Below, in pieces: positions 42,208-63,314 of a stretch of DNA of 64,000 nucleotides. This DNA is from Rhodospirillales bacterium BBD 1991-14. GTDB lineage: Bacteria > Pseudomonadota > Alphaproteobacteria > Kiloniellales > Kiloniellaceae. Each line of letters begins with the position of its first letter. Within the stretch, counting starts at the first letter, position 1. Under the pieces are notes generated by a model. The model did not search any database, had not been told where the DNA came from, and worked only from the letters and a program-made list of their open reading frames with translations. The position numbers were made by a program, and so were the translations under genes. Location of the stretch: positions 692,996 to 756,995 of the forward strand of contig LYSY01000003.1 of the NCBI GenBank assembly GCA_001657395.1. Direction: 5' to 3'.

Positions 42208-42242
42208 GCGAAGAGTCCCATGATCTCGAGTTGGAGCCCTTG

Positions 42243-43670
42243 ATGCCTTCTCCCTTGTCCCCCGTTACCCGACGCCGCGCCCTCCTTGGCGGCCTTGCCC
42301 TCTCGGCCATCGGGATTGGCGCGCCTCTGTCCCGGAGCTTCGCGGCGGCGCCGCGCAGCCTGACCGCCGGTCCCGGCGAGGCGCTGCTCCTGGAAAAGGG
42401 GCAGCCGAAAACGCGGATCTGGCTTTATGACGGCACATCACCCGGCCCGATCCTGCGCGCCCGCCAGGGCGAGGAGGTCTTCGTCCGGCTGAAGAACGAC
42501 CTGCCGCAGCCGACCACGGTCCACTGGCATGGCATCCGCATCGACAATGCCATGGACGGCGTCGCCGGACTGACCCAGGACCCGGTGCCGCAGGGAGAGA
42601 CCTTCGACTACCGCTTCACCGTGCCCGATGCGGGCACCTTCTGGTACCACCCCCACAACCGCTCCTGGGAGCAGGTGGCCCGCGGCCTCTATGGCCTGCT
42701 GATCGTCGAGGAGGCGCAAGGCGGAGCTCAGCACGACAGGGATATCGCCATCGTCGCCGACGACTGGCGGCTGGGCGAGGACGGGCAGCTCGACGAGGCC
42801 TCCTTCGGCCACATGCGCGACTGGAGCCATGCCGGACGCCTCGGCAACACCCTCACGCTCAACGGCCAGGACCGGCTCGACATTCCGGTCAATCACAACG
42901 AATACCTACGCTTACGCCTCTGCAACACCTGCAACGCCCGCATCCTGGAGCTGCGGATCGAACACCCCGGTATCCGGCTCGTCGCCGAGGACGGACAACC
43001 GGTGCCGCCCCGCGACCTCATCGACGGCTACATTCGCCTGGCCCCGGGTGAGCGCGCCGATCTCTTCATGCACATGGGCCTTGATCCGGGCAGCACGGCG
43101 GCCATCACCGAAGTCAGCGGCGATCAGCGCCTGGAGGCGGGACGCTTCGTCTATCATCCGACGAACCGCCTGGCCTATCGCGCGCCGCCCGTTCTCGGCC
43201 TGCCCGCCAATCCGCTCCCGTCCAGGCTCGACCTCGGCTCGGCTCTGGCCGTCGATCTGCTGATGGAGGGCGGTGCCATGGGCACCCTCGCCGAAGCCGT
43301 CCACAAAGGCGAGACGAAAGGCATCCGCGAACTGGTGCGACAGGGCCTGGTCTGGTCCTTCAACGGTACCGCCGGCATGGCGGAGGCGCCGCTCTTCGCC
43401 GCTGCGCTGGGCCGCACCGTCACGGTCGACCTGCGCAACGACACCCGCTGGCCCCATGCCATGCATTTCCACGGCCACCACGTGAAGGTGCTGGAGCGCA
43501 ACGGCCAACCGAGCGGATCAGATGCCTGGAAGGACACGGTTCTGGTCGACCCCCTGGAATCCGCCAAGGTCGCCTTCGTCGCTGACAATCCCGGCAAGTG
43601 GATGCTCCACTGCCACATGCTGGAGCACCAGGCCGCCGGCATGGCGACCTGGTTCACTGTGGGGATCTAG
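42243..43670 (+). CDS. Periplasmic multicopper oxidase
   Basis: A 475-residue three-domain copper oxidase exported by the Tat route (TRRRALLGGLALSAIGIG). All four copper-binding clusters are present: TTVHWHGI, FWYHPHNRS, WPHAMHFHGHH and the type 1 site HCHMLEHQAAGM with a Met axial ligand. The ATG at 42243 has GGAG six bases before it; a GTG at 42204 overlapping the previous stop (GTGA) is an alternative. It resembles CueO/CopA-like or FtsP-type oxidases. Its stop codon lies inside repeat copy 1. Confidence 0.88.
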   Translation: MPSPLSPVTRRRALLGGLALSAIGIGAPLSRSFAAAPRSLTAGPGEALLLEKGQPKTRIWLYDGTSPGPILRARQGEEVFVRLKNDLPQPTTVHWHGIRIDNAMDGVAGLTQDPVPQGETFDYRFTVPDAGTFWYHPHNRSWEQVARGLYGLLIVEEAQGGAQHDRDIAIVADDWRLGEDGQLDEASFGHMRDWSHAGRLGNTLTLNGQDRLDIPVNHNEYLRLRLCNTCNARILELRIEHPGIRLVAEDGQPVPPRDLIDGYIRLAPGERADLFMHMGLDPGSTAAITEVSGDQRLEAGRFVYHPTNRLAYRAPPVLGLPANPLPSRLDLGSALAVDLLMEGGAMGTLAEAVHKGETKGIRELVRQGLVWSFNGTAGMAEAPLFAAALGRTVTVDLRNDTRWPHAMHFHGHHVKVLERNGQPSGSDAWKDTVLVDPLESAKVAFVADNPGKWMLHCHMLEHQAAGMATWFTVGI

Positions 43671-43807
43671 CGCGTTTTCGACTGACGTCGAATTCGGTTC
43701 CAGCCCGCTCCCCTCCCGGCCACCCATAGGATACTGGCCCCTGGAGTACTGGGGGTGGCCGGGAGGGGGAGCGGGCCGGTGCCGTCAAACCCAGAAAGAC
43801 TCTAGCG
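43667..43807. repeat. Hairpin repeat family, copy 1
   Basis: An intergenic element of about 140 bases beginning and ending with CTAGCG. The core arms are 43703-43725 and 43753-43776 (GCCCGCTCC..GGCCACCC and its complement, one base bulged) around a loop starting ATAGGATACTGGCCCC. It fills the gap between two convergent genes, and the CTAGCG at each end supplies the TAG stop of each gene. It could act as a bidirectional terminator. Copies 2 and 3 are at 50257 and 62371. Confidence 0.85.
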
Positions 43808-44545
43808 GTACTCGGGATTGGGATAGTCAAAGCGGCAGCCGGCGTCCCAGAGGGAGCGCTGGTTTCCGTGGACGGGGAAGCCGCCGGCGTCCTTCAGCAG
43901 GCGTGCCAGGTGCATCACGTTCCAGGTGAGGAAGGTGGTGTTGCGGTTGGTGAAGTCGTTCTCCGGGCCGCCGGAACCTTCGTCCATGTAGGAGGGGCCC
44001 GGTCCCGCCTCGCCCAGCCAGGCGGCATCGGCCTGGGGCGGGATGGAGTAGCCCAGGTGCTGCAGCGAATAGAGGATGTTCATGGAGCAGTGCTTGGCGC
44101 CGTCCTCGTTGCCGGTCACCAGGCAGCCCCCCACCTTGCCGTAGTAGGCGTACTGGCCGGCTTCGTTGAGGTCGCTGGAGGAGGCGTAGAGACGCTCGAT
44201 CACCTTGGTGCAGACGGAGGACTTCTCGCCCAGCCAGATCGGCGTGGTCAGCACCAGGATGTCGGCGGCCTCGACCTTGGCATAGATCTCCGGCCAGGCG
44301 TCCTTCTCCCAGCCGTGCTCGGTCATGTCCGGATAGACGCCGTAGGCGATGTCATAGTCGACCGGGCGCAGCACCTCGACGCCGACGCCGCTCTTTTCCA
44401 TGATCGCCCGCGAGATGTCGATCAGCCCCTGGGTGTGCGAAAGACCCGGGCTGGGCTTCAATGTGCAGTTCAGGAACAGCGCCTTCAAACCGCTGAAATC
44501 CCATGTCTTTTGATCACACCAGCTTTCTTGAAGGTCGTTCAGCAT
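43802..44545 (-). CDS. Flavodoxin-like NAD(P)H-dependent reductase
   Basis: A 247-residue protein of the NADPH-dependent FMN reductase/flavodoxin superfamily, start ATG 44545. The FMN phosphate loop region reads LFLNCTLKPSPGLSHTQGLI and the flavin-binding ADILVLTTPIWLGEKSSVCTKVIERL follows, then YYGKVGGCLVTGNEDGAKHC. Such proteins reduce quinones, azo compounds or flavins. It is divergent from an ECF sigma gene 226 bases away, so it could be a target of that sigma; this is inference. Confidence 0.82.
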   Translation of the reverse strand: MLNDLQESWCDQKTWDFSGLKALFLNCTLKPSPGLSHTQGLIDISRAIMEKSGVGVEVLRPVDYDIAYGVYPDMTEHGWEKDAWPEIYAKVEAADILVLTTPIWLGEKSSVCTKVIERLYASSSDLNEAGQYAYYGKVGGCLVTGNEDGAKHCSMNILYSLQHLGYSIPPQADAAWLGEAGPGPSYMDEGSGGPENDFTNRNTTFLTWNVMHLARLLKDAGGFPVHGNQRSLWDAGCRFDYPNPEYR

Positions 44546-44620
44546 GGTCCGCCGTCCCTTTCCCAGTCGATCTGATGAATGCGGGGGAATCCCCGGCTTG
44601 ATGCACCGGCTCCGTCGGCG

Positions 44621-44631
44621 GTTACAGTAAC
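44621..44631. promoter_or_regulatory. Palindrome GTTACAGTAAC between reductase and ECF sigma genes
   Basis: A perfect 11-base palindrome (arms GTTAC/GTAAC) in the divergent intergenic region, 76 bases before the reductase start. It is a candidate operator for an unidentified regulator. Confidence 0.3.
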
Positions 44632-44771
44632 ATCGCACCCCTGCAGCATCGCAACACTTCAACCTTGAGCGGCGAACGACGACGCCCGCGGATCCCGGCC
44701 ATGGCCCGACGCGGCTAATCAGCCTGGGCTGTTTTCTCCGTCAGCCTTGCGGGCTAGGCTGTCCGGCGGGG

Positions 44772-45425
44772 TTGGCTAATGAGCCGAGACGGCGGACCGG
44801 GGTGGTGTTGCAGAAAGAGCCGGGGGGCTGCGGGCCTTTCAACGACGAGGAAGAGCTCCTGGCGGGCCTGAAACGCGGGGAGCGCGGTGCGGTTTCCCGT
44901 TTCGTCGCCGACAACATCGGCCGCATGCGGGCGGTGGCGGCGCGCTTGGTCAAGGACGAGGATCTGGCCGAGGACTGCGTCCAGGAGGCTTTCATCAAGG
45001 CGCTGAAGAACATCGATCGCTTCGAGGGTCGCGCCAAGCTGAGGACCTGGCTGCACCGCATTACGGTCAACGAGGCGCTGATGGTGCTGCGCAGCCGCAA
45101 GCGCCTTGCGGAAGACCTCATCGATCCTCTGCTGCCCGACTTCGACGAGAATGCCTGCCGGCTGGAAGCGCCCTGGACCAAGCGTCTGTCAGCGGAGGAT
45201 ATTCTCAGCCAGGCGGAACAGCGGGCCCTGGTGCTGTCGAAGATCGACGAACTGCCCGAGAGCTACCGTATCGTGCTGATGCTGCGCGACATCGAAGAGC
45301 TTGACACGGCAGAGGTGGCCGATGCTCTCGGCATTACGGAGGGCAACGTGAAGGTGCGCCTGCACCGCGCCCGCTCCGCGCTGAAGAAGCTCCTCGAGCC
45401 CCTCCTGCGGGGAGAAGCGCCATGA
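44772..45425 (+). CDS. ECF-type RNA polymerase sigma factor
   Basis: A 217-residue extracytoplasmic-function sigma factor. Region 2 reads LVKDEDLAEDCVQEAFIKALKNIDRF with RTWLHRITVNEALMVLRSRKR; region 4 is LPESYRIVLMLRDIEELDTAEVADALGITEGNVKVRLHRARSALKK. The start is uncertain: TTG 44772 or GTG 44802 fit, and no strong ribosome site is seen. Its stop overlaps the anti-sigma start in an ATGA, so the two are a coupled pair. Confidence 0.9.
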   Translation: MANEPRRRTGVVLQKEPGGCGPFNDEEELLAGLKRGERGAVSRFVADNIGRMRAVAARLVKDEDLAEDCVQEAFIKALKNIDRFEGRAKLRTWLHRITVNEALMVLRSRKRLAEDLIDPLLPDFDENACRLEAPWTKRLSAEDILSQAEQRALVLSKIDELPESYRIVLMLRDIEELDTAEVADALGITEGNVKVRLHRARSALKKLLEPLLRGEAP

Positions 45426-45745
45426 CACCGAGCTACGGAAGCAGGGCCTGGCGCTTCATGAAGGGGCTCATGCTGCGCAATCTGCCCCTGATGATCACCT
45501 GCCGGGAGTTCGAGGACTTCCTTCTCGACTACCTGGAGGGCAACCTGCCGCGCGGGCAGCGCAGGATCTTCGATCTCCACCTGGCGATCTGCCGCGAGTG
45601 CCGCGACTACCTGGCCGCCTACAAGGAAACCATGGCGCTCGGCAAGCGGGCCTTCGACGATCCGGAAGCAGCCCTGCCGGAGAACGTGCCTGAGGACCTG
45701 GTCACGGCGGTTCTGGAGGCGCGGCGCCCGGATTCCGAAAAGTAG
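45422..45745 (+). CDS. Soluble zinc-binding anti-sigma factor
   Basis: A 107-residue protein with the zinc anti-sigma signature H-x3-C-x2-C (HLAICREC) and an upstream Cys (ITCREFEDFLLDYLEG). There is no membrane span, so the signal must be sensed in the cytoplasm, as in RsrA- or ChrR-type redox switches. It overlaps the sigma gene by four bases and probably holds it inactive. Zinc release or disulfide formation is the expected trigger. Confidence 0.87.
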   Translation: MTPSYGSRAWRFMKGLMLRNLPLMITCREFEDFLLDYLEGNLPRGQRRIFDLHLAICRECRDYLAAYKETMALGKRAFDDPEAALPENVPEDLVTAVLEARRPDSEK

Positions 45746-46012
45746 TCGCGAAGCCGGTGTCATCCGACCGTCATTGAAGCCAATCCTTCGCCCCGCGGGC
45801 CGGAAGCCGTTGTGCCGGGCGTTCCGGCAGGCTTGAATACCGGCTGTAACCCGGCGCGCGGCTCTGCCATCTGACTTGCCGCCGGCACAAGCCATCAGAA
45901 GCCCGCAGCCGCAAGGTGGGCCACAGAAAGAGGATCTTGCCCTTTGGTGCGCCTGCGGAGGTTCCGCGGGAGCTTGACGTTCGACCTGATGCGCCTGTTA
46001 TGGGAGATCCCG

Positions 46013-46756
46013 ATGACGCCCGATGAGATCCTGGCCCTGCCGTCGATGCCACCCGGCAATCCGAGCTACCCAACCGGCCCCTACCGCTTTGTCTCGCGCG
46101 AATACTTCGTCATCATCTACGAAAGCGACCCTGAAGCGATCCGCCGGCTGGTGCCGGAGCCGCTGGAGCCGGACGGCTCCGGCCAGGTCTACTACGAATG
46201 GATCAACATGCCCGACAGCTCGGGCTTCGGCTCCTACGTGGAGTCCGGCGTGGTGATCCCCTGCCGTTTTCAGGGCGAGGCGGTCAACTACACCGCCATG
46301 ATGTTCTTGAACGACGAGCCGCCGATTTCGGCCGGCCGCGAGATCTGGGGATTTCCAAAGCGCTGGGGCGAGCCGCACCTGCGCGTCGAAACCGACACCC
46401 TGACCGGCAGCCTGCACTACGCCGGCCAACTGGTCGCCCTCGGCACCATGGGCTACAAGCACGAGAACCTCATCAAGGACCCGGCCAAACGCAACGAGGC
46501 CCTGAAGAAGACTCAGGTCAATCTGAAGCTGCTGCCCTGCGTGACCGGCAAGCCACTGGTCGCCCAGCTCGTCGCATACAATCTGGAAGACATCGACGTG
46601 AAGTTTCACTACGGCGGGCCGGCGCGCCTGCATCTGGTTCCCCATGTGAACGCCCCGGTGGCGGACCTGCCGGTCCGCAAGATCGTCGGCGGACGACACT
46701 ATAAGGCGGACCTGACGCTGCCCTTCGGCCGCGTTGTCCATGACTACCTCGCCTGA
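46013..46756 (+). CDS. adc: Acetoacetate decarboxylase
   Basis: A 247-residue enzyme converting acetoacetate to acetone and CO2. The Schiff-base lysine is Lys116 in REIWGFPKRWGEP, and the adjacent glutamate-bearing VYYEWINMP and MMFLNDEPPISAGRE are family motifs. The start ATG 46013 has GGGAGA upstream. It is followed 40 bases later by a 3-hydroxybutyrate dehydrogenase, so it may drain acetoacetate formed by that enzyme. Some family members instead act in hydration or aldol reactions, so activity should be read with care. Confidence 0.87.
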   Translation: MTPDEILALPSMPPGNPSYPTGPYRFVSREYFVIIYESDPEAIRRLVPEPLEPDGSGQVYYEWINMPDSSGFGSYVESGVVIPCRFQGEAVNYTAMMFLNDEPPISAGREIWGFPKRWGEPHLRVETDTLTGSLHYAGQLVALGTMGYKHENLIKDPAKRNEALKKTQVNLKLLPCVTGKPLVAQLVAYNLEDIDVKFHYGGPARLHLVPHVNAPVADLPVRKIVGGRHYKADLTLPFGRVVHDYLA

Positions 46757-46796
46757 GCACTGCTCCGGCGCCCTTACCTTTCAGGAGCAAGCATCC

Positions 46797-47579
46797 ATGA
46801 CCCAAGGCAAAAACGCCATCATCACAGGATCCACCAGCGGCATCGGCCTCGGCATTGCCGAGGCCATGGCGGCGGCCGGCATGAACGTCATGCTGAACGG
46901 CTTCGGCGACGCCGGTGAGATCGAGGCCCTGCGCAGCCGCCTTGCCGAGAGCCACGGCGTAAAGGTCGCCTACAACGGGGCCGATATGACCAAGCCGGAG
47001 GAGATCGAGGCCCTGGTGACGGAGACCGTCAGCACCTTTGGCCAGGTCGACGTGGTGGTGAACAACGCCGGCATTCAGAATGTCCAGCCGATCGAGGAGT
47101 TTCCGACCGCGAAGTGGGACGCCATCCTGGCCATCAACCTGACCAGTGCCTTTCACACCATCCGTCTGACACTGGGCGACATGAAGGCGCGCGGCTGGGG
47201 CCGCGTGATCAACCTTGCCTCCGCCCACGGGCTTGTGGCCTCGCCCTTCAAGTCGGCTTACGTCGCCGCCAAGCACGGCATGCTGGGGCTCACCAAGACG
47301 GTGGCGCTGGAAGCGGCCGAACACGGCGTCACGGTGAACGCCATCTGCCCCGGCTACGTGCTGACGCCCCTGGTCGAAAAGCAGATCCCGGACACCGCCA
47401 AGGCGCGGGGGATCAGCGAGGAGGCCGTTGTGAAGGACGTCATTCTCGGCGGCCAGCCGACCAAGGAATTCGTCACCACCGAGCAGCTCGGCGGCCTGGC
47501 GGTGTTCCTTTGCACGGATGCTGCCGCGTCGATCACCGGTGCTGCCCTGCCGGTGGACGGCGGCTGGACGGCGCAATGA
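46797..47579 (+). CDS. bdhA: 3-hydroxybutyrate dehydrogenase
   Basis: A 260-residue short-chain dehydrogenase interconverting 3-hydroxybutyrate and acetoacetate with NAD. Features are the nucleotide loop ITGSTSGIGLGIAEAM, NNAGIQNVQPIEEFP, the catalytic Ser-Tyr-Lys with SAYVAAKHGMLGLTK, and the family-specific tail YVLTPLVEKQIPDTAKARGI and LPVDGGWTAQ. AGGAGCAA precedes the ATG. The stop overlaps the patatin gene in an ATGA. Confidence 0.95.
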   Translation: MTQGKNAIITGSTSGIGLGIAEAMAAAGMNVMLNGFGDAGEIEALRSRLAESHGVKVAYNGADMTKPEEIEALVTETVSTFGQVDVVVNNAGIQNVQPIEEFPTAKWDAILAINLTSAFHTIRLTLGDMKARGWGRVINLASAHGLVASPFKSAYVAAKHGMLGLTKTVALEAAEHGVTVNAICPGYVLTPLVEKQIPDTAKARGISEEAVVKDVILGGQPTKEFVTTEQLGGLAVFLCTDAAASITGAALPVDGGWTAQ

Positions 47580-48616
47580 ACGCCGCCGCCGGGAAAGGGC
47601 GGCGATCGATCAACCTGGCGCTCCAGGGCGGCGGCGCCCACGGCGCCTTTACCTGGGGCGTGCTGGACCGCGTTCTGGAGGACGACCGCCTGCAGATCGA
47701 GGCGATCTCCGGTACCAGCGCCGGCGCCATGAATGCCGCCGTCGTCGCCGACGGCATCATGGCGGGGGGCCCCGAGGGTGCCCGCCGCTGTCTGCGCCGT
47801 TTCTGGAAAGCGGTCAGCGATGCCGGGCGTTCAAGCCCGATCCAGCGCAACCCGGTCGACGTCTTCATGGGCAACTGGAGCCTCGACACCTCGCCCAGCT
47901 ACCTTTTCTTCGACCTGCTGGGCCGCCTGGCATCGCCCTATGAACTGAACCCGCTCAACCTCAACCCGCTGCAGGATCTGATCGACGAGACGGTGGACTT
48001 CGCGCGGGTGCGCAGCTGCGACCGCATGAAGATCTTCATCTCCGCCACCAACGTGGAGACCGGGCGGGTCAAGGTGTTCGACCGCAAGCAGCTGACCGCG
48101 GAGATGGTGATGGCCTCCGCCTGCCTGCCCTTCCTCTTCCAGGCGGTGGAAATCGACGGCGTGCCTTACTGGGACGGCGGCTACATGGGCAATCCCGTCC
48201 TCTTCCCGTTCTTCAACGACTGCCTTTCCAGCGATGTCGTCATCGTTCAGCTCAACCCGGTCATGCGCAAGGGGGCGCCCCGCTCGGCCCGGGAGATTCT
48301 CAACCGCGTGAACGAGATCACCTTCAACTCCAGCCTGCTGCGGGAGTTTCGCGCCATCAACTTCGTCTCGCGTCTGCTGGACGAGGGCAAGCTGGACCCG
48401 GCGGACTACAAGCACGTCCTCGTGCACCGCATCGAGGGCGAAGACGAAATCAAGCCGCTTGGCGCATCCAGCAAGCTGAACGCCGAGTGGGTGTTCCTGC
48501 AGCACCTTTTCGAGATCGGCTATCGCCGCGCCGATGCCTGGCTGGAGGAGAACTTCGATCATCTCGGGGAGCGCGCCACCGTCGACCTGCCTGCCATGTA
48601 CCAGGGGGAGACCTGA
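47576..48616 (+). CDS. Patatin-like phospholipase/esterase
   Basis: A 346-residue serine hydrolase. The oxyanion loop is LALQGGGAHGAF (residues 14-25), the nucleophile is Ser48 in SGTSAG, and the catalytic Asp is in YWDGGYMG, so the Ser-Asp dyad is intact. There is no signal peptide. Patatins next to bdhA are found in several polyhydroxybutyrate-storing alphaproteobacteria, suggesting action on granule lipid or polymer, but this is not shown by sequence. Confidence 0.86.
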   Translation: MNAAAGKGRRSINLALQGGGAHGAFTWGVLDRVLEDDRLQIEAISGTSAGAMNAAVVADGIMAGGPEGARRCLRRFWKAVSDAGRSSPIQRNPVDVFMGNWSLDTSPSYLFFDLLGRLASPYELNPLNLNPLQDLIDETVDFARVRSCDRMKIFISATNVETGRVKVFDRKQLTAEMVMASACLPFLFQAVEIDGVPYWDGGYMGNPVLFPFFNDCLSSDVVIVQLNPVMRKGAPRSAREILNRVNEITFNSSLLREFRAINFVSRLLDEGKLDPADYKHVLVHRIEGEDEIKPLGASSKLNAEWVFLQHLFEIGYRRADAWLEENFDHLGERATVDLPAMYQGET

Positions 48617-48653
48617 AGCGCGCGCGATGGCAGGAGCCGGAAACAGAGGCGGC

Positions 48654-48689
48654 GACGCCACGCTGTCTAAGGGGAAACAGCGTGGCGTC
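48654..48689. terminator. Bidirectional hairpin between convergent genes
   Basis: GACGCCACGCTGT (48654-48666) and ACAGCGTGGCGTC (48677-48689) form a perfect 13-base stem with a ten-base loop between the patatin gene and the convergent EF-hand gene. There is no T-run on either side, so termination strength is uncertain. Confidence 0.55.
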
Positions 48690-48756
48690 CGGCGCCAGAG
48701 AGCTCTTGGGGGAAGGGGGGGCAGCCCTCGGACGCATCCAAACCGGTCTTGCCGCC

Positions 48757-49290
48757 TTACGAACGATCGTCTTCGTCGTAGTCGTCGTCATCCTGCCAAC
48801 GGCCGCGGCGAAAGTCGGAGCGGTCGATGACGCCGTCCTCGTTACGATCCATCCGCTGCATGGCTCTGTCCAAGGGCCGGTTCACCTCGGCCAGGGTGAT
48901 CTGCCCGTCGCCGTCGGCATCGAAACGCTGAAAGCCGTCGACCATGCGCTCGCGCATGAAGTCGAGCCAGAGGCTTTCGAACTCCGCCAGGCTGAGCGCC
49001 TGATTGTTGTCGGCATCGAAGCTCGCGAAGCTGTTGTCGCGCACCTGCTCGATCTCGGCGCGGCTGACAGCCCCGTCGTTGTTGCTGTCGAAATAGTTCA
49101 GCATCATGCGCATGCCGCCGCCGCGCCGGCCGTGCCCGCCGAAGCCGTGGCCGCCGCCGTAGGCCTGCTGACTGAACTGCGCCGGACCGCCGTGGCCGCG
49201 CCAGCCGTCGGAAGCCTTGGCAACGACACCCGCGGCACCGAGCGAAAGAACAACAGCACTGGCAACGGCGATCTTGGTAGCCTTTTTCAT
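48757..49290 (-). CDS. Exported EF-hand calcium-binding protein
   Basis: A 177-residue protein with a signal peptide (MKKATKIAVASAVVLSLGAAG), a Gly/His-rich linker (GGGHGFGGHGRRGGG) and four EF-hand loops: 68-79 DSNNDGAVSRAE, 92-103 DADNNQALSLAE, 124-135 DADGDGQITLAE and 148-159 DRNEDGVIDRSD. Loops 1, 3 and 4 keep the calcium ligands; loop 2 has Asn/Gln replacements. The tail is strongly acidic (DDDDYDEDD). An ATG at 49299 is an alternative start. It is divergent from a two-component system. Confidence 0.88.
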   Translation of the reverse strand: MKKATKIAVASAVVLSLGAAGVVAKASDGWRGHGGPAQFSQQAYGGGHGFGGHGRRGGGMRMMLNYFDSNNDGAVSRAEIEQVRDNSFASFDADNNQALSLAEFESLWLDFMRERMVDGFQRFDADGDGQITLAEVNRPLDRAMQRMDRNEDGVIDRSDFRRGRWQDDDDYDEDDRS

Positions 49291-49510
49291 CGAGAACATC
49301 CTCACTTCTGGTCTTTCGGGATCACTGGGCTGCTCTCTAGATAGGCCCAGGATGTCGCAAAAGTTCGTCAGGCCCACGGCCTGTCTGTCGCAAGCAGTGT
49401 CAGAAGCGGTCCCTGACACATTTGGTTACACTTTTTCCGGGCCCCGGACGCCGTGCCGCCCTATAGGTATTCGTGAAACTGTTGCAAACCCGGGCAGCGA
49501 TCAGGAACCG

Positions 49511-50233: not shown

Positions 50234-50256
50234 TATGGTCTTGCTGCGCATACCTC

Positions 50257-50336
50257 CGGTTCCAGCCCGCTCCCCCACCCGGCCACCCATAGGATACTCG
50301 TGTTGGGTGGCCGGGTGGGGGAGCGGGCCGGTGCCG
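50257..50336 (+). repeat. Hairpin repeat family, copy 2
   Basis: Core only (80 bases). Perfect 24-base arms at 50265-50288 and 50305-50328 (GCCCGCTCCCCCACCC.. and complement) enclose the loop ATAGGATACTCGTGTT. Relative to copies 1 and 3 the T-A pair in the arm is replaced by A-T on both sides, a compensatory change. It lies between the co-directional response regulator and kinase genes. Confidence 0.85.
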
Positions 50337-50356
50337 CTTCGCGAGAGGCAACGCTG

Positions 50357-51859: not shown

Positions 51860-51946
51860 CGCGGCGGAGCTGTCACAAAACAGCCGCCGATCGGCGCTAG
51901 TGTTTCAGCTTTGTCTTTGTTTCCGCGAGAGGGAGTCGTTTCTGTG

Positions 51947-53527: not shown

Positions 53528-53567
53528 AAGGCTGCATAGTAGAAGGCTGCAGAGTAGAAGGCCGCAA
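53523..53567 (+). repeat. 15-bp tandem repeat x3 starting at a stop codon
   Basis: Three units of AGTAGAAGGCYGCAN in a row; the TAG stop of the hydrolase gene is part of unit 1. Units 2 and 3 are intergenic. Confidence 0.75.
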
Positions 53568-53594
53568 TCGACGACGGTTCAAGGAAGGCGCAGG

Positions 53595-54305: not shown

Positions 54306-54378
54306 AACGTCCTGAATGCCCTTCCTGGTCTCACCTCACCGGCTGCGCATCCGTCGACCGCTCCCTTGCTTGAACGCT

Positions 54379-54945: not shown

Positions 54946-55544
54946 CAATCCAGACAGTCCCGCAGTTGCAACAGACCGCGCCGCACCCAGCTTTTCACGG
55001 TTCCCAAAGGCACCTGCATGTGCGCCGCAAGCTCTTCATGAGTCATGCCATGATAGTAGGCCAGCAGAATGGCATCACGCTGCTTTTCCGGCAGCTTCGC
55101 CAGGCATTTCCGCAGGCCCGGGTCGACCCGCTCCAACGGACTCTCCGGCCGCGCGGCGGGGTCCGCCCTGGCCTCTGCCGCCTCGTCCCAGGGTTCGATA
55201 TGGCGCGGCTCGCGGGCCTCGCTACGCAGCCGGTCGATGGCGCAGTTGCGCGCGATGGTGGCCATCCAGGCCATGGGGCGCCCTTTTTCGGTACGGTACT
55301 GCGTGGCCTTGCGCCAGATCAGCACATAGGCTTCCTGGAGCACCTCGTCCGCGGCCTCCCGCGCGACCAGAAGACGCCGCACGATCGGATACAGCCGTGG
55401 CGCAGACAGCGTGTAGAGCCTCTGGAAGGCAGCCTTGTCACCCCGTGCCGTTGCCGCCAGCAGGTCCTCGAGCGGATCGAGATCCGCGATGTCAGACAGC
55501 CCTTTCATCCCGCGTGCCGGGCTCTCCCCCAGATATGCGATCAT
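54945..55544 (-). CDS. ECF-type RNA polymerase sigma factor
   Basis: A 199-residue sigma factor. Region 2 reads LVAREAADEVLQEAYVLIWRKA with RPMAWMATIARNCAIDRLR; region 4 is LPEKQRDAILLAYYHGMTHEELAAHMQVPLGTVKSWVRRGLLQLR. Starts at 55544 (MIAYLGES, GGGG four to five bases upstream) or 55508 are possible. It is coupled to the cupin anti-sigma and follows cytochrome c and ferritin-like genes in the same direction, which may be its own targets. The GTVKSWVRRGL form resembles SigK/RpoE-type sigmas. Confidence 0.9.
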   Translation of the reverse strand: MIAYLGESPARGMKGLSDIADLDPLEDLLAATARGDKAAFQRLYTLSAPRLYPIVRRLLVAREAADEVLQEAYVLIWRKATQYRTEKGRPMAWMATIARNCAIDRLRSEAREPRHIEPWDEAAEARADPAARPESPLERVDPGLRKCLAKLPEKQRDAILLAYYHGMTHEELAAHMQVPLGTVKSWVRRGLLQLRDCLD

Positions 55545-55597
55545 TATGCCCCATACCCCGCCTGTCAGTCTCTGGCCTTGCACAACGGATCGCACCC

Positions 55598-56071
55598 CTA
55601 ACCGCCGGAGGTAGAGTCGCCGGGCCGGTCGCTACCCTGGCCACTACCCTGGCTTCTACCCTGGGCCGTGCGCATCAGGAAGGCGATCAGGTCGCGGCGG
55701 TCTTCCGGCACCTCCACCATGAAGTTCATGCGCTGGCCCGGCAGGAAGCCCTCGGGATCGGCAAGCCAGCGGTCCAGGCTCTCGGCGTCCCACAGGAGCC
55801 TGGATTGCTTCAGCGCCGGCGAATAGTCGTAGTCGTCGAGCGACCCGACCTCGCGCCCGAAGACGTCGTCGTGGCGCGGGCCGATGCGGTTGGCCCCCAG
55901 CGAGTGGCAGCCGATGCAGCGGCTGTCGTAGAGCAGGGCGCCACGTTCGGCATCGCCACCGAGGGCGCCGTCAGCCGGCTCCATCCCGCCGAAACTGCGT
56001 CCGGGCAGCAGCGCCAGGGCCGACAGACCGAGCACCATGACAATGGCGAGCTGCGTTTCAGTCTTGAGCAT
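55598..56071 (-). CDS. Small periplasmic c-type cytochrome
   Basis: A 157-residue protein with signal peptide (LAIVMVLGLSALALLPGRSFGG) and one heme site CIGCHSLG in a class I fold (GALLYDSRCIGCH near the mature N-terminus, axial Met in QRMNFMVEVPEDRRDLIAFL). The C-terminus has a Gln-Gly-Ser repeat (QGRSQGSGQGS) from a 12-base DNA repeat. GGGAGGGAAC precedes the ATG. It lies between the ferritin-like and sigma genes and may carry electrons for peroxide or iron redox handling. Confidence 0.88.
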   Translation of the reverse strand: MLKTETQLAIVMVLGLSALALLPGRSFGGMEPADGALGGDAERGALLYDSRCIGCHSLGANRIGPRHDDVFGREVGSLDDYDYSPALKQSRLLWDAESLDRWLADPEGFLPGQRMNFMVEVPEDRRDLIAFLMRTAQGRSQGSGQGSDRPGDSTSGG

Positions 56072-56156
56072 TGTTCCCTCCCACGGATCGCGCCGCACAG
56101 AACCGGTGCCGGCCGTTATGGTGGCCGGCACCGCTTCTGCGCAGCCACTCGACAGA

Positions 56157-56768
56157 TCAAACGCCGAAGCTGAGTGCTTTCTCGGGCACCGGCTGACCGA
56201 GGGCCGAGGCCAGCAACGACCAGTGCATGGTCTCGTCGGCGGCGAGACGGCCGGAGACCTTGGCCAGGGCGGGGTCGACAAAGGCCGGAATGACACCGAG
56301 GTAGGCGTTCGCCGCGCCGCGCTCCAAACGCGCGGCCAGAGTGAGGACATCGCCCTGGCTCTTCAGGCTGCCCGCGTTCAGCGCCTTGGCGTACTCGCCG
56401 ATGCTTTTCTCTTCGACGGGCGTACCGCCCAGTTTCTTGATGGTCGCCATCAGGGCATCGCGGTGCTCCTTGTGATGGCTCTGGAAGAGCACGGCCACCG
56501 GCAGCACGTCCTGGGACAGCAGGCCGCTTTCGGCGCCAAGCTGATAGGCGTTGATGGCCTCATGCTCCAGGCCGAGGGCAACGTTCAGGATCGACACGTC
56601 CTTCTTCGGGTCGGCCGCGCCCTGGCGGCTGGCCGAGCTGGCCATGGTTTCACAGCCGATCAGCAGCGCGACGGCGGTGGCCGAGAGGCTGGCCTTGCCG
56701 GCGCCCTGAAGGAAACGGCGGCGCGCCGGGACAATTTCCGGCAGGGTTCTGGTATCGATGGATGACAT
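56157..56768 (-). CDS. Tat-exported ferritin-like protein
   Basis: A 203-residue ferritin-like four-helix protein with a twin-arginine signal (PARRRFLQGAGKASLSATAV) and a lipobox-like GCETM after it, so it may be a lipoprotein. Glu and His residues of a possible di-metal site are in LGLEHEAINAYQLG and SHHKEHRDALMATI, then RLAADETMHWSLLASALG. It heads the operon with cytochrome c and the ECF sigma. AGGAGAG precedes the start. It may be a periplasmic oxidative-stress protein; enzymatic activity is unproven. Confidence 0.85.
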   Translation of the reverse strand: MSSIDTRTLPEIVPARRRFLQGAGKASLSATAVALLIGCETMASSASRQGAADPKKDVSILNVALGLEHEAINAYQLGAESGLLSQDVLPVAVLFQSHHKEHRDALMATIKKLGGTPVEEKSIGEYAKALNAGSLKSQGDVLTLAARLERGAANAYLGVIPAFVDPALAKVSGRLAADETMHWSLLASALGQPVPEKALSFGV

Positions 56769-57078
56769 GAAATCTCTCCTAGGCCTTCAATGCAGTTCGG
56801 ATGAACGGGTGAAGGCAACGACCGGCGGAGCAGACCCAGGCGGTCGGAATGGAACCGGCCCCGCGCGATCGCGCCTTCTGATAGCCCTAACGGCCCGCCC
56901 GTCCGATCCGGATGCAGGTACGGAAAATTATTTTTGAGGAGGAAGGTTTTCGGCGGCGCCTTTCCAGGCGCCACGCTGCAGCGGCGGTCAGCGATGCGCT
57001 TCCGTTTCGCCACGGACATGCCGCGGCTGCAGTCTCAAACGCGCCGTTGAATGGTCGCAGGGTTGCCCCGGTCCGGCG
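56769..57078. other. Intergenic region upstream of the ferritin-like gene
   Basis: About 310 bases that must hold the promoter of the ferritin-cytochrome-sigma operon and the end of the mscS transcript. One stem, GGCGCCT and AGGCGCC around TTCC, lies near 56955. No clear ECF -35/-10 pair can be assigned and no further gene is seen. Confidence 0.45.
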
Positions 57079-58404
57079 TCAGGTTCCGGCAGGCTGCACC
57101 CTGGTCTCCACCGGGACGGCGTCCTTGATGATGAGATGGCGGTGCGGATAGGGAATCTCGATGCCGTGCTGCTTGAACGCATCCCAGACCGCCAGAAGCA
57201 CCTGGCCCTTGATGTTGGCCACACCGTCCTGAGGATCGGTGATCCAGAAACGCAGCACGAAGTCCAGCGAGCTGTCGCCGAAGCCCGTCAGATGGCAGAC
57301 TGGCGGCTGATCGCGCGCCACCCGCTCCGGCGCTGCCGCCGCTTCGCGGGCAATCCGGCGAACCTCGTGCGGATCACAACCGTAAGAAACGCCGAAGGTG
57401 ATCTCCATGCGCACAAGTTCGTCGGTGAAGGACCAGTTCACCACGTGCTGGGTGATCAGGTCCTCGTTGGGGATCAGGTACTCCTTGCCGTCGCGGGTTA
57501 CGACCGAGACATAGCGTGCGCCCAGGGAAGAGATCCAGCCGAAGGTCGGTCCCAGTTCGATGACATCGCCCGGCTTGATCGACTTGTCGAGCAGCAGGAT
57601 GACCCCGCTGATCAGGTTGGAGACCACCTTCTGGAGGCCGAAGCCGATGCCGACGCCGACGGCGCCGGAGAACAGCGCCAGAGCCGTCAGATCGATGCCC
57701 ACCGAGTTGAGAGCGATGACGACCGCCAGGGTGATCAGGGTGATTTTCAGCAGCTTGCCGAGCAGAACCTGCACCGATGGGGTGAGGTCCGAGACGCGGT
57801 TGATCCGCTTCTCCAGGAAGCGCGACAGCGCCGCGGCGCCCCAAAGAAAGACGGCCAACGTCAGCACGCCCTTGACGACCGTCAGCAACGAGACCCGCAA
57901 CTCGCCAAAGGTGATCGCGAGCGAATCGAGCAGGGCTACGGTCGGATCGAGCAGTTCGGTGATGTTGAGGGCCGCGATGGTCCAGGCGCAGACCGCGAGG
58001 GTTTTTGCCAATGCGGGATTGCGCACGAAGGTCGTGAAAAGGCGGATGACAACCCAGGCCGTCAGCAGGCTGGCGACGACACTCAGCAGATAGCTGCGGC
58101 TCGGCCAGGTGCTCTGCTGCATGATCCCGATGGCCAGCCACAGCATCAACAGGTAGGTCAGCGGAGTCAGGACCGCCGGCAGCACTCTCACCTGCGCGGC
58201 AAAACGCGGAGGAATGGCCGTGCGCTCAAGCCATGCTGCCACCACCGGGCGCAGGCGGCGCCCGAGAATGGCGGCGATACCAAACAGGATCAGGAGGACC
58301 ACCACCTGGAGCAGCGACCAGAAGTTGGCAACGTTCTGCAGAAACCAGTCGGCAAGCGCCTGAAGTTCGGCGGCGATCCGCCCGGGGTCGAAAAACTGTT
58401 CCAT
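57079..58404 (-). CDS. MscS-family mechanosensitive channel
   Basis: A 441-residue membrane protein. Several N-terminal spans precede the pore-lining TM3 of the MscS family (ALALFSGAVGVGIGFGLQKVVSNLISGVILLLDKSIKPGDVIEL), followed by the beta domain (RYVSVVTRDGKEYLIPNEDLI) and the alpha/beta C-domain. With extra N-terminal helices it belongs to the larger YbdG/YnaI-like group. It opens under membrane tension to release solutes during osmotic downshock. Its leader carries three tandem CAGGAG-containing units. Confidence 0.92.
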   Translation of the reverse strand: MEQFFDPGRIAAELQALADWFLQNVANFWSLLQVVVLLILFGIAAILGRRLRPVVAAWLERTAIPPRFAAQVRVLPAVLTPLTYLLMLWLAIGIMQQSTWPSRSYLLSVVASLLTAWVVIRLFTTFVRNPALAKTLAVCAWTIAALNITELLDPTVALLDSLAITFGELRVSLLTVVKGVLTLAVFLWGAAALSRFLEKRINRVSDLTPSVQVLLGKLLKITLITLAVVIALNSVGIDLTALALFSGAVGVGIGFGLQKVVSNLISGVILLLDKSIKPGDVIELGPTFGWISSLGARYVSVVTRDGKEYLIPNEDLITQHVVNWSFTDELVRMEITFGVSYGCDPHEVRRIAREAAAAPERVARDQPPVCHLTGFGDSSLDFVLRFWITDPQDGVANIKGQVLLAVWDAFKQHGIEIPYPHRHLIIKDAVPVETRVQPAGT

Positions 58405-58417
58405 TGGCAGTGTCCTT

Positions 58418-58462
58418 CTCCTGAAACCCGGCCTCCTGCAACCCGGCCTCCTGCAACCCGGT
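58418..58462 (-). repeat. 15-bp tandem repeat x3 in the mscS leader
   Basis: Three units of CTCCTGMAACCCGGY directly upstream of the mscS start. On the coding strand each contains CAGGAG, a Shine-Dalgarno-like core; the nearest ends 13 bases before the ATG. Unit-number change could tune expression. Confidence 0.7.
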
Positions 58463-58807
58463 CATCATAACCGGTGCCGGACCACGCAAGTCCAGGCGCA
58501 GGCTGCCGCCGAAGTCTGGAAAAAGCAGATGGCGAAAGCGAAGGCGTCGCCGGGATGAAACCAGACCCCACTGCCGAAGTGCCTCGCGTGACCCCGCTCT
58601 CCATTATGACAGAAGGGGCAGCCAACCGGTCCGAATAGAAGCGCCGGGAGACTGCTGAACCAGGACGTTCCCGGGAAGGCTGTTCTGGGCGCTGTGCTCT
58701 GCCGGCTGCCCGCAGGAACCCAGGAGCCTGAAACAGAGGCCCCTAATATTCATGAAATATAATTAAAATCAATAACTTATAAGTCTCAATGCACTCGAAA
58801 GATTTTT
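58463..58807. other. Intergenic region with AT-rich block
   Basis: Upstream region shared by the divergent mscS and acyltransferase genes. The stretch 58741-58807 is strikingly AT-rich against the genome background and includes TATAAT (58758-58763) and the palindrome ACTTATAAGT. No matching -35 is evident. No gene is seen. Confidence 0.45.
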
Positions 58808-58854
58808 ATTGAACATCGTTCATTTCGACCCCAAATAAATGAACGATGTTCAAT
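58808..58854. promoter_or_regulatory. Twin palindromic operator upstream of the Aas-type gene
   Basis: Two 13-base palindromes, TGAACATCGTTCA (58810-58822) and TGAACGATGTTCA (58840-58852), lie 30 bases centre to centre. Together they form an 18-base perfect inverted repeat with an 11-base spacer. The form TGAAC-N3-GTTCA fits a dimeric TetR-like repressor. No such regulator gene is in the window. Confidence 0.65.
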
Positions 58855-58931
58855 TATCCGTTTGGCCCAGGGGGGTTTCAGCGGTTCCGGCTGGAAGGCC
58901 GGCGCCGCATCAACACAACAGGGGAACTGTC

Positions 58932-61900
58932 ATGGTCGCGTCGATTCTGCAGAGCCGCAATTTCCTGCCGCTGTTCTGCGTCCAGGCTTTCGGGGCTTTC
59001 ACCGACAACCTGCTGAAGAGTGCCTTTGCCTTCCTGGTCGCATTCCAGGGGCTCTCCCTCTTCGGCACGCCACCGGCCATCTCCCTGATGATCGGCACCG
59101 CAGCCTATGTGGTGCCGCTGCTGCTGTTCTCCGGCAGCGCCGGCAGGCTGGCCGATGCCTGCGACAAGGCGACGATCGTGCGCGCCACGCGGCTTGCCGA
59201 GATTCCTCTGGCACTGCTGGCCGGCGCCGCCCTCTTCACCGGCAACTCCGCCCTGGTGCTGCTGGCCATGTTCGCCTACGCCAGCCAGTCGGCCTTCTTC
59301 AGCCCGGCGAAGTACGCGATTCTGCCGCAGCACCTGCCCGAGGACCGGCTGGTCAAGGCCAACGCGCTGGTCGAGGCCTCGACCTTCGTGGCGATCCTCA
59401 GCGGCACCCTCTTCGGCGGCTTCCTGGCCGCCAAAGGCCTGATCGAGGTGGTCGTCGCCTGTCTGCTGGCCATCGCGATTGCCGCTTCCGTCATTGCCCG
59501 CTTCGTGCCGAGCGCGCGCCCGGCGCCGGACGCCGCGCCTTACCGCTTCGCCCCGCTGCAGAACACCCTCTCGGCGCTGCGCACCGTGCGCGCGCGGCTG
59601 ACCCTCTTCCGCTCGGCCATCGGCATCTCCTGGTTCTGGGCGGTCGGCCTGATCGTGATCTCGATCTTTCCGGATATCGCGCGCCGCGACCTCAACGTCT
59701 CGGCCCATGTCGCCAACACCCTGATCGGCGGTTTCGTGGTCGGCATCGCCGCCGGCGCCGCGGTGGTCACCCGCCTTCTGAACGGCGAGGTTTCGGCCCG
59801 CCATGTCCCGCTCGGCGCCCTGGGCATGGCGCTCTGCCTGATCGACCTCTCCTTTGCGGTGGAGGCCTTCAGCCTGGCCGTGACCACCCCCGGAGAAGTC
59901 GGTTTCGCCGCCTTCTTCTCGTCCTGGGCGGGTCTGCGCATCGCGCTCGACATGGCGGCGCTGGCGGCCTTCGGCGGCGTCTTCACGGTACCGCTCTACA
60001 CGCTGCTCCAGGCCCGCGCGCGTCAGCAGACCCGCTCCTCCGCCATCGCCGGCAACAACATCCTGAACGGCCTCATCATGGTCGCCCTCTTGGGGCTGAC
60101 GACCCTGCTGCTGGCGCTGGGGGTGAAGGTGCAGACGCTGTTGCTGATGCTGGGCATCGCCAATCTCTGCGTCACCCTCTACGTGATCCGCCTGATCCCC
60201 GGCGAGATCATGAAGGCCCTGGGCGCCACCGTGCTGCGCTGGCTCTTCGGCGCAAGGATCGCCGGCCTGGAGCATTACGGCGATGGGCGCAGCCCGGCGG
60301 TCGTGATCGCCAACCACACCTCCTACCTCGACGCGATCCTGCTGGCCTGCCTGCTGCCCGGCAGACCGGCCTTCGCCATCAACGCTTTCGTCGCCAAACG
60401 CTGGTGGGTGCGCCCGGCCTTCCTCTTCGCCGACCTGATCCCGGTCGACCCGGCCAGCCCCTTGAGCGTGCGGGCCATGGTGAAGCTGGTGCGCGATCAG
60501 AAACGCCGCCTGGTGATCTTTCCCGAAGGCCGCCTGACCGTGACCGGGGCGCTGATGAAGATCTACGACGGACCGGCGCTGATCGCCGACCGCAGCAACG
60601 CGCCCGTCATCCCGCTGCGCATCGACGGCGCCCAGTACACGCTGTTCTCGCGCCTTAAAGGCAAACTGCGCCGCCGCCTGCTTCCGAAGATCACGCTCTC
60701 GGTGCTGCCGCCGCGCCGCATCGACGTACCGGAGGCCCTGCGCGGACGCGCCCGCCGCGCCCATGCCGGCGCCCGGCTGCACGACATCATGACCGAGATG
60801 GTTTTCGAAACGAGCCCGCGCGAGAAGACCCTGCTGCAGAGCCTGATCGACGCCAAGGAGCTGCACGGCAAGCTCGCGGTGCTGGAGGATATCGAGCGCC
60901 GGCCCCTCGGCTACCGGCGCATCCTGGCCGGTGCCTTTGCCCTCGGCGCCCGCTTCAGGAAGGCTTTTCCGGAGAGCGAGCGCCTGGGCCTGCTGCTGCC
61001 CAACGCCAATGCCGCCGTGATCAGCTTCTTTGCCTGTCACGCCAGCGGCAAGACGCCGGCCATGCTGAACTTCACCGCCGGGGCCGCCGGCATCCGTGCC
61101 GCCCTCGAAGCCGCGCAGATCCGCGCGGTAGTGACCTCCCGGCGCTTCATCGAGAAGGCGCGGCTGGAAGGCCTGGCCGAGGAGATCGCCAAGCTGGCCG
61201 AGGTCGTCTATCTGGAGGATATCCGCCCGGCCATCGGCCCGCTGGCGCGGCTGACCGCCCTGGCCAAAGCCACCTTCCCGCGTCTGGCCCTGCGTCTGGC
61301 CGGCCTGCACAAGACGACGGCCGATGACGAGGCGGTGGTGCTTTTCACCTCAGGCTCGGAGGGGCTGCCGAAAGGCGTGGTGCTCAGTCATGCCAACATC
61401 CAGGCCAACCGCCACCAGGTCTCGGCCATGGTCGACTTCAGCCAGGAGGACCGGGTGCTGAACGTGCTGCCGATGTTCCACTCCTTCGGCCTGACCGCCG
61501 GCACGCTCCTGCCCCTGCTCTCCGGCGTGAAGACCTTCCTCTACCCCTCGCCGCTGCACTACCGCATCGTGCCGGAGGTGGCCTATGACACCAACGCCAC
61601 CATCCTCTTCGGCACCGACACCTTCCTCAGCGGCTACGCGCGCCTGGCACACGCCTACGACTTCTACAGCCTGCGTCTCGTCTTTGCCGGCGCCGAGCGG
61701 CTGCGCCCGGAGACCCGGCGCACCTGGTCGGAGAAGTTCGGCGTGCGCCTGCTGGAGGGCTACGGCGTCACCGAGACGGCGCCGGTCCTGGCCGTCAACA
61801 CGCCGATGAAGAACCGGCCGGGGGCGGCCGGGCGCCTGCTGCCGGGCATGGAGCTGCGCATCGTCCCGGTGCCCGGGATCGAGGACGGCGGGCGTCTGCA

Positions 61901-62363
61901 GGTCCGCGGCCCGAACGTCATGCTGGGCTACCTGCGCGCCGAGGCGCCCGGCGTGCTGGAGCCGCCGGCGGAGGGCTGGCACGACACCGGCGACATCGTC
62001 ACCCTGGACGACGACGGTTTCATCACCATCCGCGGCCGCGCCAAGCGCTTCGCCAAGGTGGGCGGGGAGATGGTCTCCCTGGCCGCGGTCGAGGCGCTGG
62101 CCGCGGAGGTCTGGCCGGAGGCGCGGCTGGTGGCGCTGGCCATCCCGCACCCGCGCAAGGGCGAGCAGGTCGTCCTGCTGGTGGAAAGCGACGGCACCGA
62201 ACGTCCGCTCGCGGCCCTCAGCGCCCATGCCAGGCAGAAGGGCTTCGCCGAGATCGCCCTGCCGCGCGAACTGCGTCCGGTCGAGGCCATCCCGCTGCTG
62301 GGCAGCGGCAAGGTCGACTACGCGGGCGCCCAGAAGCTCTTGGCGCCGGCCATGGCGGCGTGA
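58932..62363 (+). CDS. aas: LplT-PlsC-Aas fusion: lysophospholipid transporter and acyl-ACP-phospholipid acyltransferase
   Basis: A 1143-residue inner-membrane protein with three parts. Residues 1-400 are an MFS flippase like LplT (FAFLVAFQGLSLFGTPPA, LLFSGSAGRLADACDKATIV). About 430-640 is a PlsC-type acyltransferase (NHTSYLDAI and FPEGRLTVTGALMKIYDG). About 650-1143 is an acyl-ACP synthetase (FTSGSEGLPKGVVLSH, EGYGVTETAPVLAVN, WHDTGDIVTLDDDGF). It imports and re-acylates lysophospholipids to repair the membrane. GGGGAA precedes ATG 58932; an earlier ATG at 58839 lies inside the operator and was rejected. Confidence 0.93.
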   Translation: MVASILQSRNFLPLFCVQAFGAFTDNLLKSAFAFLVAFQGLSLFGTPPAISLMIGTAAYVVPLLLFSGSAGRLADACDKATIVRATRLAEIPLALLAGAALFTGNSALVLLAMFAYASQSAFFSPAKYAILPQHLPEDRLVKANALVEASTFVAILSGTLFGGFLAAKGLIEVVVACLLAIAIAASVIARFVPSARPAPDAAPYRFAPLQNTLSALRTVRARLTLFRSAIGISWFWAVGLIVISIFPDIARRDLNVSAHVANTLIGGFVVGIAAGAAVVTRLLNGEVSARHVPLGALGMALCLIDLSFAVEAFSLAVTTPGEVGFAAFFSSWAGLRIALDMAALAAFGGVFTVPLYTLLQARARQQTRSSAIAGNNILNGLIMVALLGLTTLLLALGVKVQTLLLMLGIANLCVTLYVIRLIPGEIMKALGATVLRWLFGARIAGLEHYGDGRSPAVVIANHTSYLDAILLACLLPGRPAFAINAFVAKRWWVRPAFLFADLIPVDPASPLSVRAMVKLVRDQKRRLVIFPEGRLTVTGALMKIYDGPALIADRSNAPVIPLRIDGAQYTLFSRLKGKLRRRLLPKITLSVLPPRRIDVPEALRGRARRAHAGARLHDIMTEMVFETSPREKTLLQSLIDAKELHGKLAVLEDIERRPLGYRRILAGAFALGARFRKAFPESERLGLLLPNANAAVISFFACHASGKTPAMLNFTAGAAGIRAALEAAQIRAVVTSRRFIEKARLEGLAEEIAKLAEVVYLEDIRPAIGPLARLTALAKATFPRLALRLAGLHKTTADDEAVVLFTSGSEGLPKGVVLSHANIQANRHQVSAMVDFSQEDRVLNVLPMFHSFGLTAGTLLPLLSGVKTFLYPSPLHYRIVPEVAYDTNATILFGTDTFLSGYARLAHAYDFYSLRLVFAGAERLRPETRRTWSEKFGVRLLEGYGVTETAPVLAVNTPMKNRPGAAGRLLPGMELRIVPVPGIEDGGRLQVRGPNVMLGYLRAEAPGVLEPPAEGWHDTGDIVTLDDDGFITIRGRAKRFAKVGGEMVSLAAVEALAAEVWPEARLVALAIPHPRKGEQVVLLVESDGTERPLAALSAHARQKGFAEIALPRELRPVEAIPLLGSGKVDYAGAQKLLAPAMAA

Positions 62364-62370
62364 GGATCTC

Positions 62371-62512
62371 CTAGCGCGTTCTCGACTTACGTCGACTCGG
62401 TTCCAGCCCGCTCCCCCTCCCGGCCACCCATAGGATACTGGCCCCTTAAGACAATGGGGGTGGCCGGGAGGGGGAGCGGGCCGGTGCCGTTAAACCAGGA
62501 AAACGCCTAGCG
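62371..62512. repeat. Hairpin repeat family, copy 3
   Basis: A 142-base element bounded by CTAGCG at both ends, like copy 1. Perfect 24-base arms lie at 62406-62429 and 62458-62481 around a loop starting ATAGGATACTGGCCCC. The flanks TAGCGCGTTCTCGACTTACG and GGTGCCGTTAAACC match copy 1. It separates two convergent genes and its right CTAG provides the stop of the IclR gene. Confidence 0.87.
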
Positions 62513-63187: not shown

Positions 63188-63203
63188 GCCACATACCCCC
63201 AAA

Positions 63204-63277: not shown

Positions 63278-63314
63278 TCCCATCTCGAAAGCTGCCGAAG
63301 AAAGGCCGGAAGCG

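Follow-up and report, generated by a model that had tools for sequence, protein, structure and literature searches.

Three copies of a long, GC-rich hairpin repeat lie in a 64,000-nucleotide stretch of the genome of Rhodospirillales bacterium BBD 1991-14 (contig LYSY01000003.1, positions 692,996 to 756,995; this whole stretch is called the window below), and the arms of these hairpins change on both sides from copy to copy. Two-sided arm changes are commonly taken as proof of RNA function. We asked whether this repeat is a structured RNA or a mobile DNA element, and why the TAG stop codons of adjoining genes abut it. We consider it probable that the full copies are a gene-less derivative, similar to a miniature inverted-repeat transposable element (MITE), of an ISRel6-kind insertion sequence (IS) of the IS630 family, and that they contain a hairpin that is prone to flipping and homogenizes its own arms. 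Searches of the literature collection consulted found no paper on this hairpin family, which is apparently unnamed.

The hairpins of the window belong to a dispersed repeat family

All three hairpins described in a first-pass annotation of the window were present at the positions it gave, and they folded far better than shuffled sequences (z on the + strand of -5.87, -10.15, and -7.59 for copies 1, 2, and 3, with 0 of 200 shuffles as good). The count of three was too low, however. When copy 1 (L009) was used as the query against its own genome (G000; 5.51 Mb, 21 contigs), it was the top match and 18 long copies were recovered, located on contigs C9 (4), C10 (1), C15 (8), and C19 (5), the last of which contains the window. 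Eight more pieces (L069 to L075 and L077) were judged by eye to be truncated or core-deleted. The first-pass annotation was largely right: the repeat family is real, and it has 18 long and eight truncated copies in this genome. As a separate observation, contig C1 (1.13 Mb) has no long copy and two degraded pieces, which is possibly a difference between replicons.

Alignment of the 18 long copies (alignment A1) gave the plan of a full element: CTAG, approximately GCGTTTTC, a small hairpin around TCGACTTRCGTCGA, the core hairpin, GCCGTCAAACC, approximately GAAAACG, and CTAG. The full element is about 130 bases long and gene-less, with an outer module enclosing the GC-rich core hairpin, whose arms are 24 to 32 bases and whose loop is 15 to 31 bases. 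The corresponding features of the window are the following.

43667..43805, + strand: copy 1 (L009), full element from CTAG to CTAG (own-genome search and A1; right end 11/16 against the IS end described below)
43667..43670, unstranded: left CTAG of copy 1; TAG at 43668-43670 ends the multicopper oxidase gene 42177-43670
43677..43692, + strand: small left hairpin of copy 1, TTCGAC-TGAC-GTCGAA, in the outer module (sequence and fold)
43695..43784, + strand: core hairpin of copy 1 (sequence, A1, and fold)
43802..43805, unstranded: right CTAG of copy 1; CTA at 43802-43804 serves as stop codon for the FMN-reductase-like gene on the minus strand, 43802-44662
50257..50336, + strand: copy 2 (L025), core hairpin with no recognizable outer ends, with a response regulator gene on one side and that of its histidine kinase on the other (sequence, A1, and fold)
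50289..50304, + strand: loop of copy 2, ATAGGATACTCGTGTT (sequence and A1)
62371..62510, + strand: copy 3 (L011), full element from CTAG to CTAG (own-genome search and A1; right end 11/16 against the IS end)
62371-62374, unstranded: left CTAG of copy 3; the plus-strand gene ends before it, at TGA 62361-62363
62382..62395, + strand: small left hairpin of copy 3, TCGAC-TTAC-GTCGA, in the outer module (sequence and fold)
62398..62489, + strand: core hairpin of copy 3 (sequence, A1, and fold)
62507..62510, unstranded: right CTAG of copy 3; CTA at 62507-62509 serves as stop codon for the IclR-type gene on the minus strand, 62507-63418

The tetranucleotide CTAG is scarce in the window (26 occurrences, compared with 74 expected from its trinucleotides). 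Terminal repeats were looked for around copy 2 and no clear ones were found, in agreement with its earlier description as a core-only copy. The arm change from CTCCC/GGGAG to CACCC/GGGTG reported for copy 2 was also real.

The element varies in presence between close relatives and abuts TAG stop codons

We compared 24 sites of the own genome (18 long and 6 short copies) with G001, a genus-mate whose sequence is 94-95% identical where it flanks copies 2 and 3. G001 was without the element at 11 of these sites (L010, L011, L012, L014, L016, L017, L020, L022, L025, L071, and L077), and some form was found in both genomes at 10 (L013, L015, L018, L021, L023, L024, L029, L069, L073, and L074); three sites were undecided (L009, L019, and L075). 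For the copies in the window, the copy 1 site was empty in G002, the sole informative relative; the copy 2 site was empty in G001, G002, G005, and G006; and the copy 3 site was empty in G001, G002, G003, and G006. The copies are short, carry no transposase gene, are dispersed, and differ in presence between relatives, all of which agrees with an early suggestion of a small non-autonomous mobile element. The family is not confined to three copies, and empty sites exist.

Some short forms are products of deletion, since the copies at L073 and L074 are fuller in G001 than in the own genome. Another repeat occupies the L011 (copy 3) and L017 sites in G001. The one at the copy 3 site (L235) is roughly 150 bases long and has CCTTCGAGACG-type sequence, and a similar one is found at the L017 site.

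Four of the sites without the element in G001 have an own copy with a TA left end (L010, L012, L014, and L077), and at all four G001 has TA at the junction. At two of these sites, L014 and L077, G001 has TAA where the own genome has TAG (reading frames assigned by eye), which is what is predicted for an element that begins with G and inserts after TA. TAG stops abut the element because, at each end, TA precedes the G of the element. The statement that these TAGs end genes on both sides held for copy 1, with its two convergent genes, and for the minus-strand gene at copy 3, but not for the plus-strand gene at copy 3, which uses TGA. The element may duplicate a TA target.

The right end of the element resembles those of IS630-family insertion sequences

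A genus-mate, G003, contains a 1054-base unit that runs from CTAG to CTAG, has the ends CTAGAGCGTTTCCTGATTTGATAG and CTAGAGCGTTTCATGTTTTGACGG, and includes a DDE_3 transposase, whose HTH_Tnp_IS630 and DDE_3 domains are split over two frames. Relatives of this IS were present in 413 plasmid records, 59 of them at 80% or more of its length, and the best rows were annotated as IS630 family or ISRel6. In the two relatives examined, the right end CTAGAGCGTTTCATGTTTTGACGG was identical (Sinorhizobium fredii) or had one base changed (Rhizobium etli). Where it is recognizable, the right end of the element matches this IS end in sequence and at the same spacing, for example CTAGAGTGTTTCACGTTTTGACGG in L174. 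Across 21 distinct right ends, selected by a TTTGACGG-type motif (TTT[G/A]ACGG, itself uncounted; one of the 21 is a chance match inside L069), the mean agreement with IS ends was 10.5 of the 16 preceding bases, compared with 4.6 for shuffles, and 16 of the 21 agreed at 10 or more positions, compared with 0.4% of shuffles. By this comparison, the element has terminal repeats in common with an IS630-family IS.

A parent IS was also sought in the own genome by means of the end motif. None was found; five of the eight matches were the element itself, and the reversed control gave 12.

Several results weigh against derivation from an IS630-family IS. The right-end motif is recognizable in only 5 of the 18 long copies of the own genome, and at the left end agreement with the IS is limited to about 13 bases. 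Nor is the end motif by itself enriched in the own genome, where it matched 8 times and its reversed form 12 times. A strict pattern applied to all fetched loci, with 189 distinct cores, found IS-like ends on both sides of 7 cores, on one side of 26, and on neither side of 156, and most hairpins in other genomes are carried in different outer modules. Presence and absence mark copy 2 as recently gained, yet it is without IS-like ends. A clean target duplication was not seen, the right flanks at empty sites being too changed. Finally, DDE_3 had no match in the own genome or in the element-carrying G001 and G002; among eight genomes, it was found only in G003 and in G006, where the locus is without matching ends.

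The absence of a current mobilizer is compatible with past mobilization, and the copies may be remnants of earlier activity or the work of a transposase that has since been lost. The IS630 reading applies to the full copies of this genus and of some others. We infer that an IS630-family transposase moves, or moved, this gene-less miniature element in trans. Such a transposase would target TA, mostly within CTAG, and the first base of the element, G, would then restore or create a TAG stop; because TA plus G gives TAG, an insertion at a gene's stop codon would be harmless and would persist. The long GC-rich hairpin would be carried along between the IS-like ends. In this way, a widespread hairpin family would be linked, within this genus, to one definite family of transposons, and the TAG ends of the adjoining genes would be explained.

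The first-pass annotation had also offered a repetitive extragenic palindromic (REP) element moved by a REP-associated tyrosine transposase (RAYT), known as TnpA-REP. The element is indeed multicopy, and it is palindromic and intergenic, as are the CGTC and GTAG REPs in the part of the literature consulted (PMC3733652). In that excerpt, however, CGTC REPs, which are class-wide in Alphaproteobacteria and apparently without a transposase, have stems of 8-9 pairs and loops of 4-5, whereas the stem of the element exceeds 20 pairs and its loop is 15-31. Matches to the Y1/RAYT transposase family (PF01797) numbered 0 in the own genome and in the element carriers G002 and G003, 1 each in G001 and G006, and 5, 1, and 1 in G004, G005, and G007, where the DNA search gave no element. 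The association with RAYT was rejected on these counts, and an origin as a RAYT-moved REP is hardly credible.

The core hairpin is inverted in place at some sites

The loop had been described as invariant, which proved incorrect. In alignment A1, ATAGGATACT was in the canonical direction in 10 of the 18 long copies; in four others the loop was inverted relative to the asymmetric outer arms (L014, L021, L024, and L029), and the remaining four deviated in or beside ATAGGATACT (L017, L018, L020, and L023). Direction could be determined for 47 of the 170 distinct cores in fetched loci, of which 29 were canonical and 18 inverted; outside the own genome the numbers were 17 and 15. The script used for this count caught 16 of the 18 own copies, scoring 12 as canonical, 3 as inverted, and 1 as undetermined. 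Drift of the loop was much larger in relatives found by BLAST.

Orthologous sites were then compared. From 57 rows, eight pairs were usable, defined by a match in both flanks and the same kind of core. One-sided flank matches (several with automatic INVERTED tags, which were ignored in counting flips), self or overlapping pairs, and pattern matches not of this hairpin were dropped before counting, as were L023/L267 and four pairs with different cores in similar places (L091/L094, L132/L192, L133/L196, and L191/L211). The loop had the same direction in five pairs (L015/L266, L018/L262, L024/L124, L119/L147, and L121/L189) and was reversed between unmoved flanks in three (L021/L276, L029/L261, and L302/L321, the last from another family). 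In the pair L029/L261, arm position 5 has a mismatch (A-C in one genome, G-T in the other) that was reversed along with the loop, and the mismatch at position 0 was unmoved, which places the break points in the outer arms, between positions 0 and 5. These data demonstrate that the hairpin, meaning its loop and most of its arms, has been inverted in place at some sites, and matching arms alone are therefore no proof of RNA function. At the excluded site L023/L267, both genomes have a copy, and the outer module is reversed with the loop direction unchanged.

Both loop directions would also be expected of an inverton, in which a site-specific recombinase inverts the hairpin. The break points fall inside long arms and the spacers are 15-31 bases, and template switching (see below) already explains homogenized arms and inverted spacers, so we regard an inverton as very improbable.

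Arm covariation can be explained by copying of DNA

Pairing was scored over 45 cores, drawn from the own genome and from many relatives. Of the arm cells, 94.1% were paired, and 13 of 32 pairs changed on both sides, a level that 0 of 500 shuffles equaled. The first-pass annotation had attributed such covariation either to selection on a folded form or to copying through it. Together with the very stable fold, this result is what a structured RNA under selection for pairing (a terminator, an RNase III site, or an mRNA stabilizer) would give. Gene setting is also in keeping with such an RNA: by a heuristic gene caller, 172 cores lay mostly between convergent (61) or tandem (84) genes, with 19 in divergent and 8 in undecided settings. 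REPs show the same preference according to an excerpted report (PMC3733652), and harmless placement alone would also produce it.

The orthologous sites gave a different result. Over the 192 arm positions of the eight pairs, there were eight one-sided differences and no compensatory ones. Each of the eight makes or breaks a Watson-Crick pair, and two leave a G-T; two differences are two-sided, and both concern the mismatch at position 0, in two of the flipped pairs. At fixed sites, then, the arms decay on one side. On the transcript strand of the 84 cores between tandem genes, G-U cells (15) and A-C cells (13) were about as numerous, so wobbles that an RNA would tolerate are not in excess. The loop direction is variable, presence and absence are frequent, and no T-run follows the stems of copies 1-3 on either strand; the stems are followed by GCCGTCAAACC, GCCGCTTCGCG, and GCCGTTAAACC. 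A search of Rfam with window positions 43000-63000 gave five matches up to an E of 1 and none at the gathering score. A terminator and promoter scan, to which loops over 8 are invisible, gave 9 and 2 sites, compared with 10.9 and 1.7 in shuffles, and none at the copies. Selection for RNA pairing is therefore an improbable cause of the covariation.

Copying through a folded form fared better. Template switching at inverted repeats homogenizes arms and inverts spacers, as described in excerpts of two reports (PMC8604942, PMC8794818), and both signals are accounted for without RNA selection. Template switching between the arms would thus explain the covariation, with no need for selection on RNA; the test is small, and single copies may have an RNA role. 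We take template switching during replication, or some other strand exchange between the arms, to be the probable process that homogenizes the arms and inverts the hairpin in place, the family as a whole presumably having no RNA function. With covarying arms between copies, one-sided decay at fixed sites, and loops flipped in place, this family would be a natural bacterial case of covariation produced by DNA-level copying.

We also compared hairpin orientation with transcription. All tandem copies of the own genome were co-oriented by eye, but other loci gave 8 co-oriented and 13 opposed, and this lead was dropped.

Related core hairpins occur in other Alphaproteobacteria within different outer modules

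A DNA search found the element in 35 of 190 relatives, and a covariance model of the core, a search that the first-pass annotation had proposed, found it in 18 of 289 genomes sampled from the class, in 14 families. Both searches scored few candidates per genome, and their copy counts are lower bounds. The exact core pattern was present in at least 113 stretches of named genomes, mainly Sphingomonas, Hephaestia, Altererythrobacter, Erythrobacter, Pelagibius, and Roseospira; one Shewanella match among the stretches listed had no hairpin. The nearest named relatives among the matches listed were Pelagibius records, and the window therefore probably comes from a Pelagibius (Rhodovibrionaceae, Rhodospirillales). 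Matches to the repeat family were found in 3 of 72,556 plasmid records, all from sphingomonads, and in no phage record. The outer flanks vary by genus. Three Altererythrobacter loci (L120, L148, and L204) have a variant core in which TTCCACCC arms (GGGTGGAA) replace GGCCACCC.

This distribution bears on the status of the core. It is possible, if doubtful, that the GC-rich hairpin is a module of its own that has spread through the Alphaproteobacteria inside several unrelated miniature elements, its arms kept alike by recopying of flip-prone folded DNA and not by RNA selection. We think it unlikely that the core is itself a mobile or hitchhiking module, carried by various outer elements according to lineage, with the IS630-like module as only one carrier. 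Its arms are nearly identical in the 45 cores, which come from many families, while the flanks differ, IS630-like ends are missing from most cores by the strict pattern, and core-only copies such as copy 2, absent in four relatives, exist. However, the conservation of the arms is partly a matter of ascertainment, the cores having been found by core similarity; some core-only copies, for example L022, may be decayed full ones; and no transposase or target rule was found for core-only insertion.

Comparison with known elements and further observations

Derivation from an IS630-family IS, which we favor for the full copies, can be set beside known systems. ISRel6-like IS630 sequences of Alphaproteobacteria have CTAG at both ends and a related right end, as does the element, which differs in being about 130 bases long and gene-less, in its long internal hairpin, and in a left end that is alike over only about 13 bases. 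IS870 is a member of the IS630 family. Going by the title of the 1993 report of Fournier et al., cited in PMC6471742, its CTAG target reportedly supplies the stop codon of the IS's own ORF1. A CTAG-derived stop is found here as well, but the genes that use it are those on the flanks. Intergenic palindromes of about 100 bases are also known from other Alphaproteobacteria, as RIME in rhizobia and Bru-RS in Brucella.

MITEPsy1 of Pseudomonas syringae is, in the excerpt of its report, a gene-less element of about 100 bases with terminal inverted repeats that inserts after CTAG or YTAA and is linked by its ends to a parent, ISPsy2, listed as IS5? (PMC3189936). It resembles the element in size, CTAG target, lack of genes, and ends tied to a parent IS; it differs in the parent, and that excerpt describes no long flipping hairpin. 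Template-switch mutations, reported in excerpted work on yeast coding sequences and RNA genes (PMC8604942, PMC8794818), combine arm homogenization with in-place inversion of a loop or spacer, as in the element. Unlike the cases in those excerpts, the element is a bacterial repeat at dispersed sites, in which an arm mismatch moved together with a 16-base loop.

Two minor observations concern GC-rich sequence. The G-rich arm strand GGGTGGCCGGGWGGGGGAGCGGG, in window positions 50257-50336 and in other core arms, has runs that, judged by eye, could match the pattern of a G-quadruplex. The own genome, G001, and G004 also contain a second repeat that forms a GC-rich hairpin, of the CCCTCCCCCATC...GGGGGAGGG kind (L076 at about 480-700; L225; L265).

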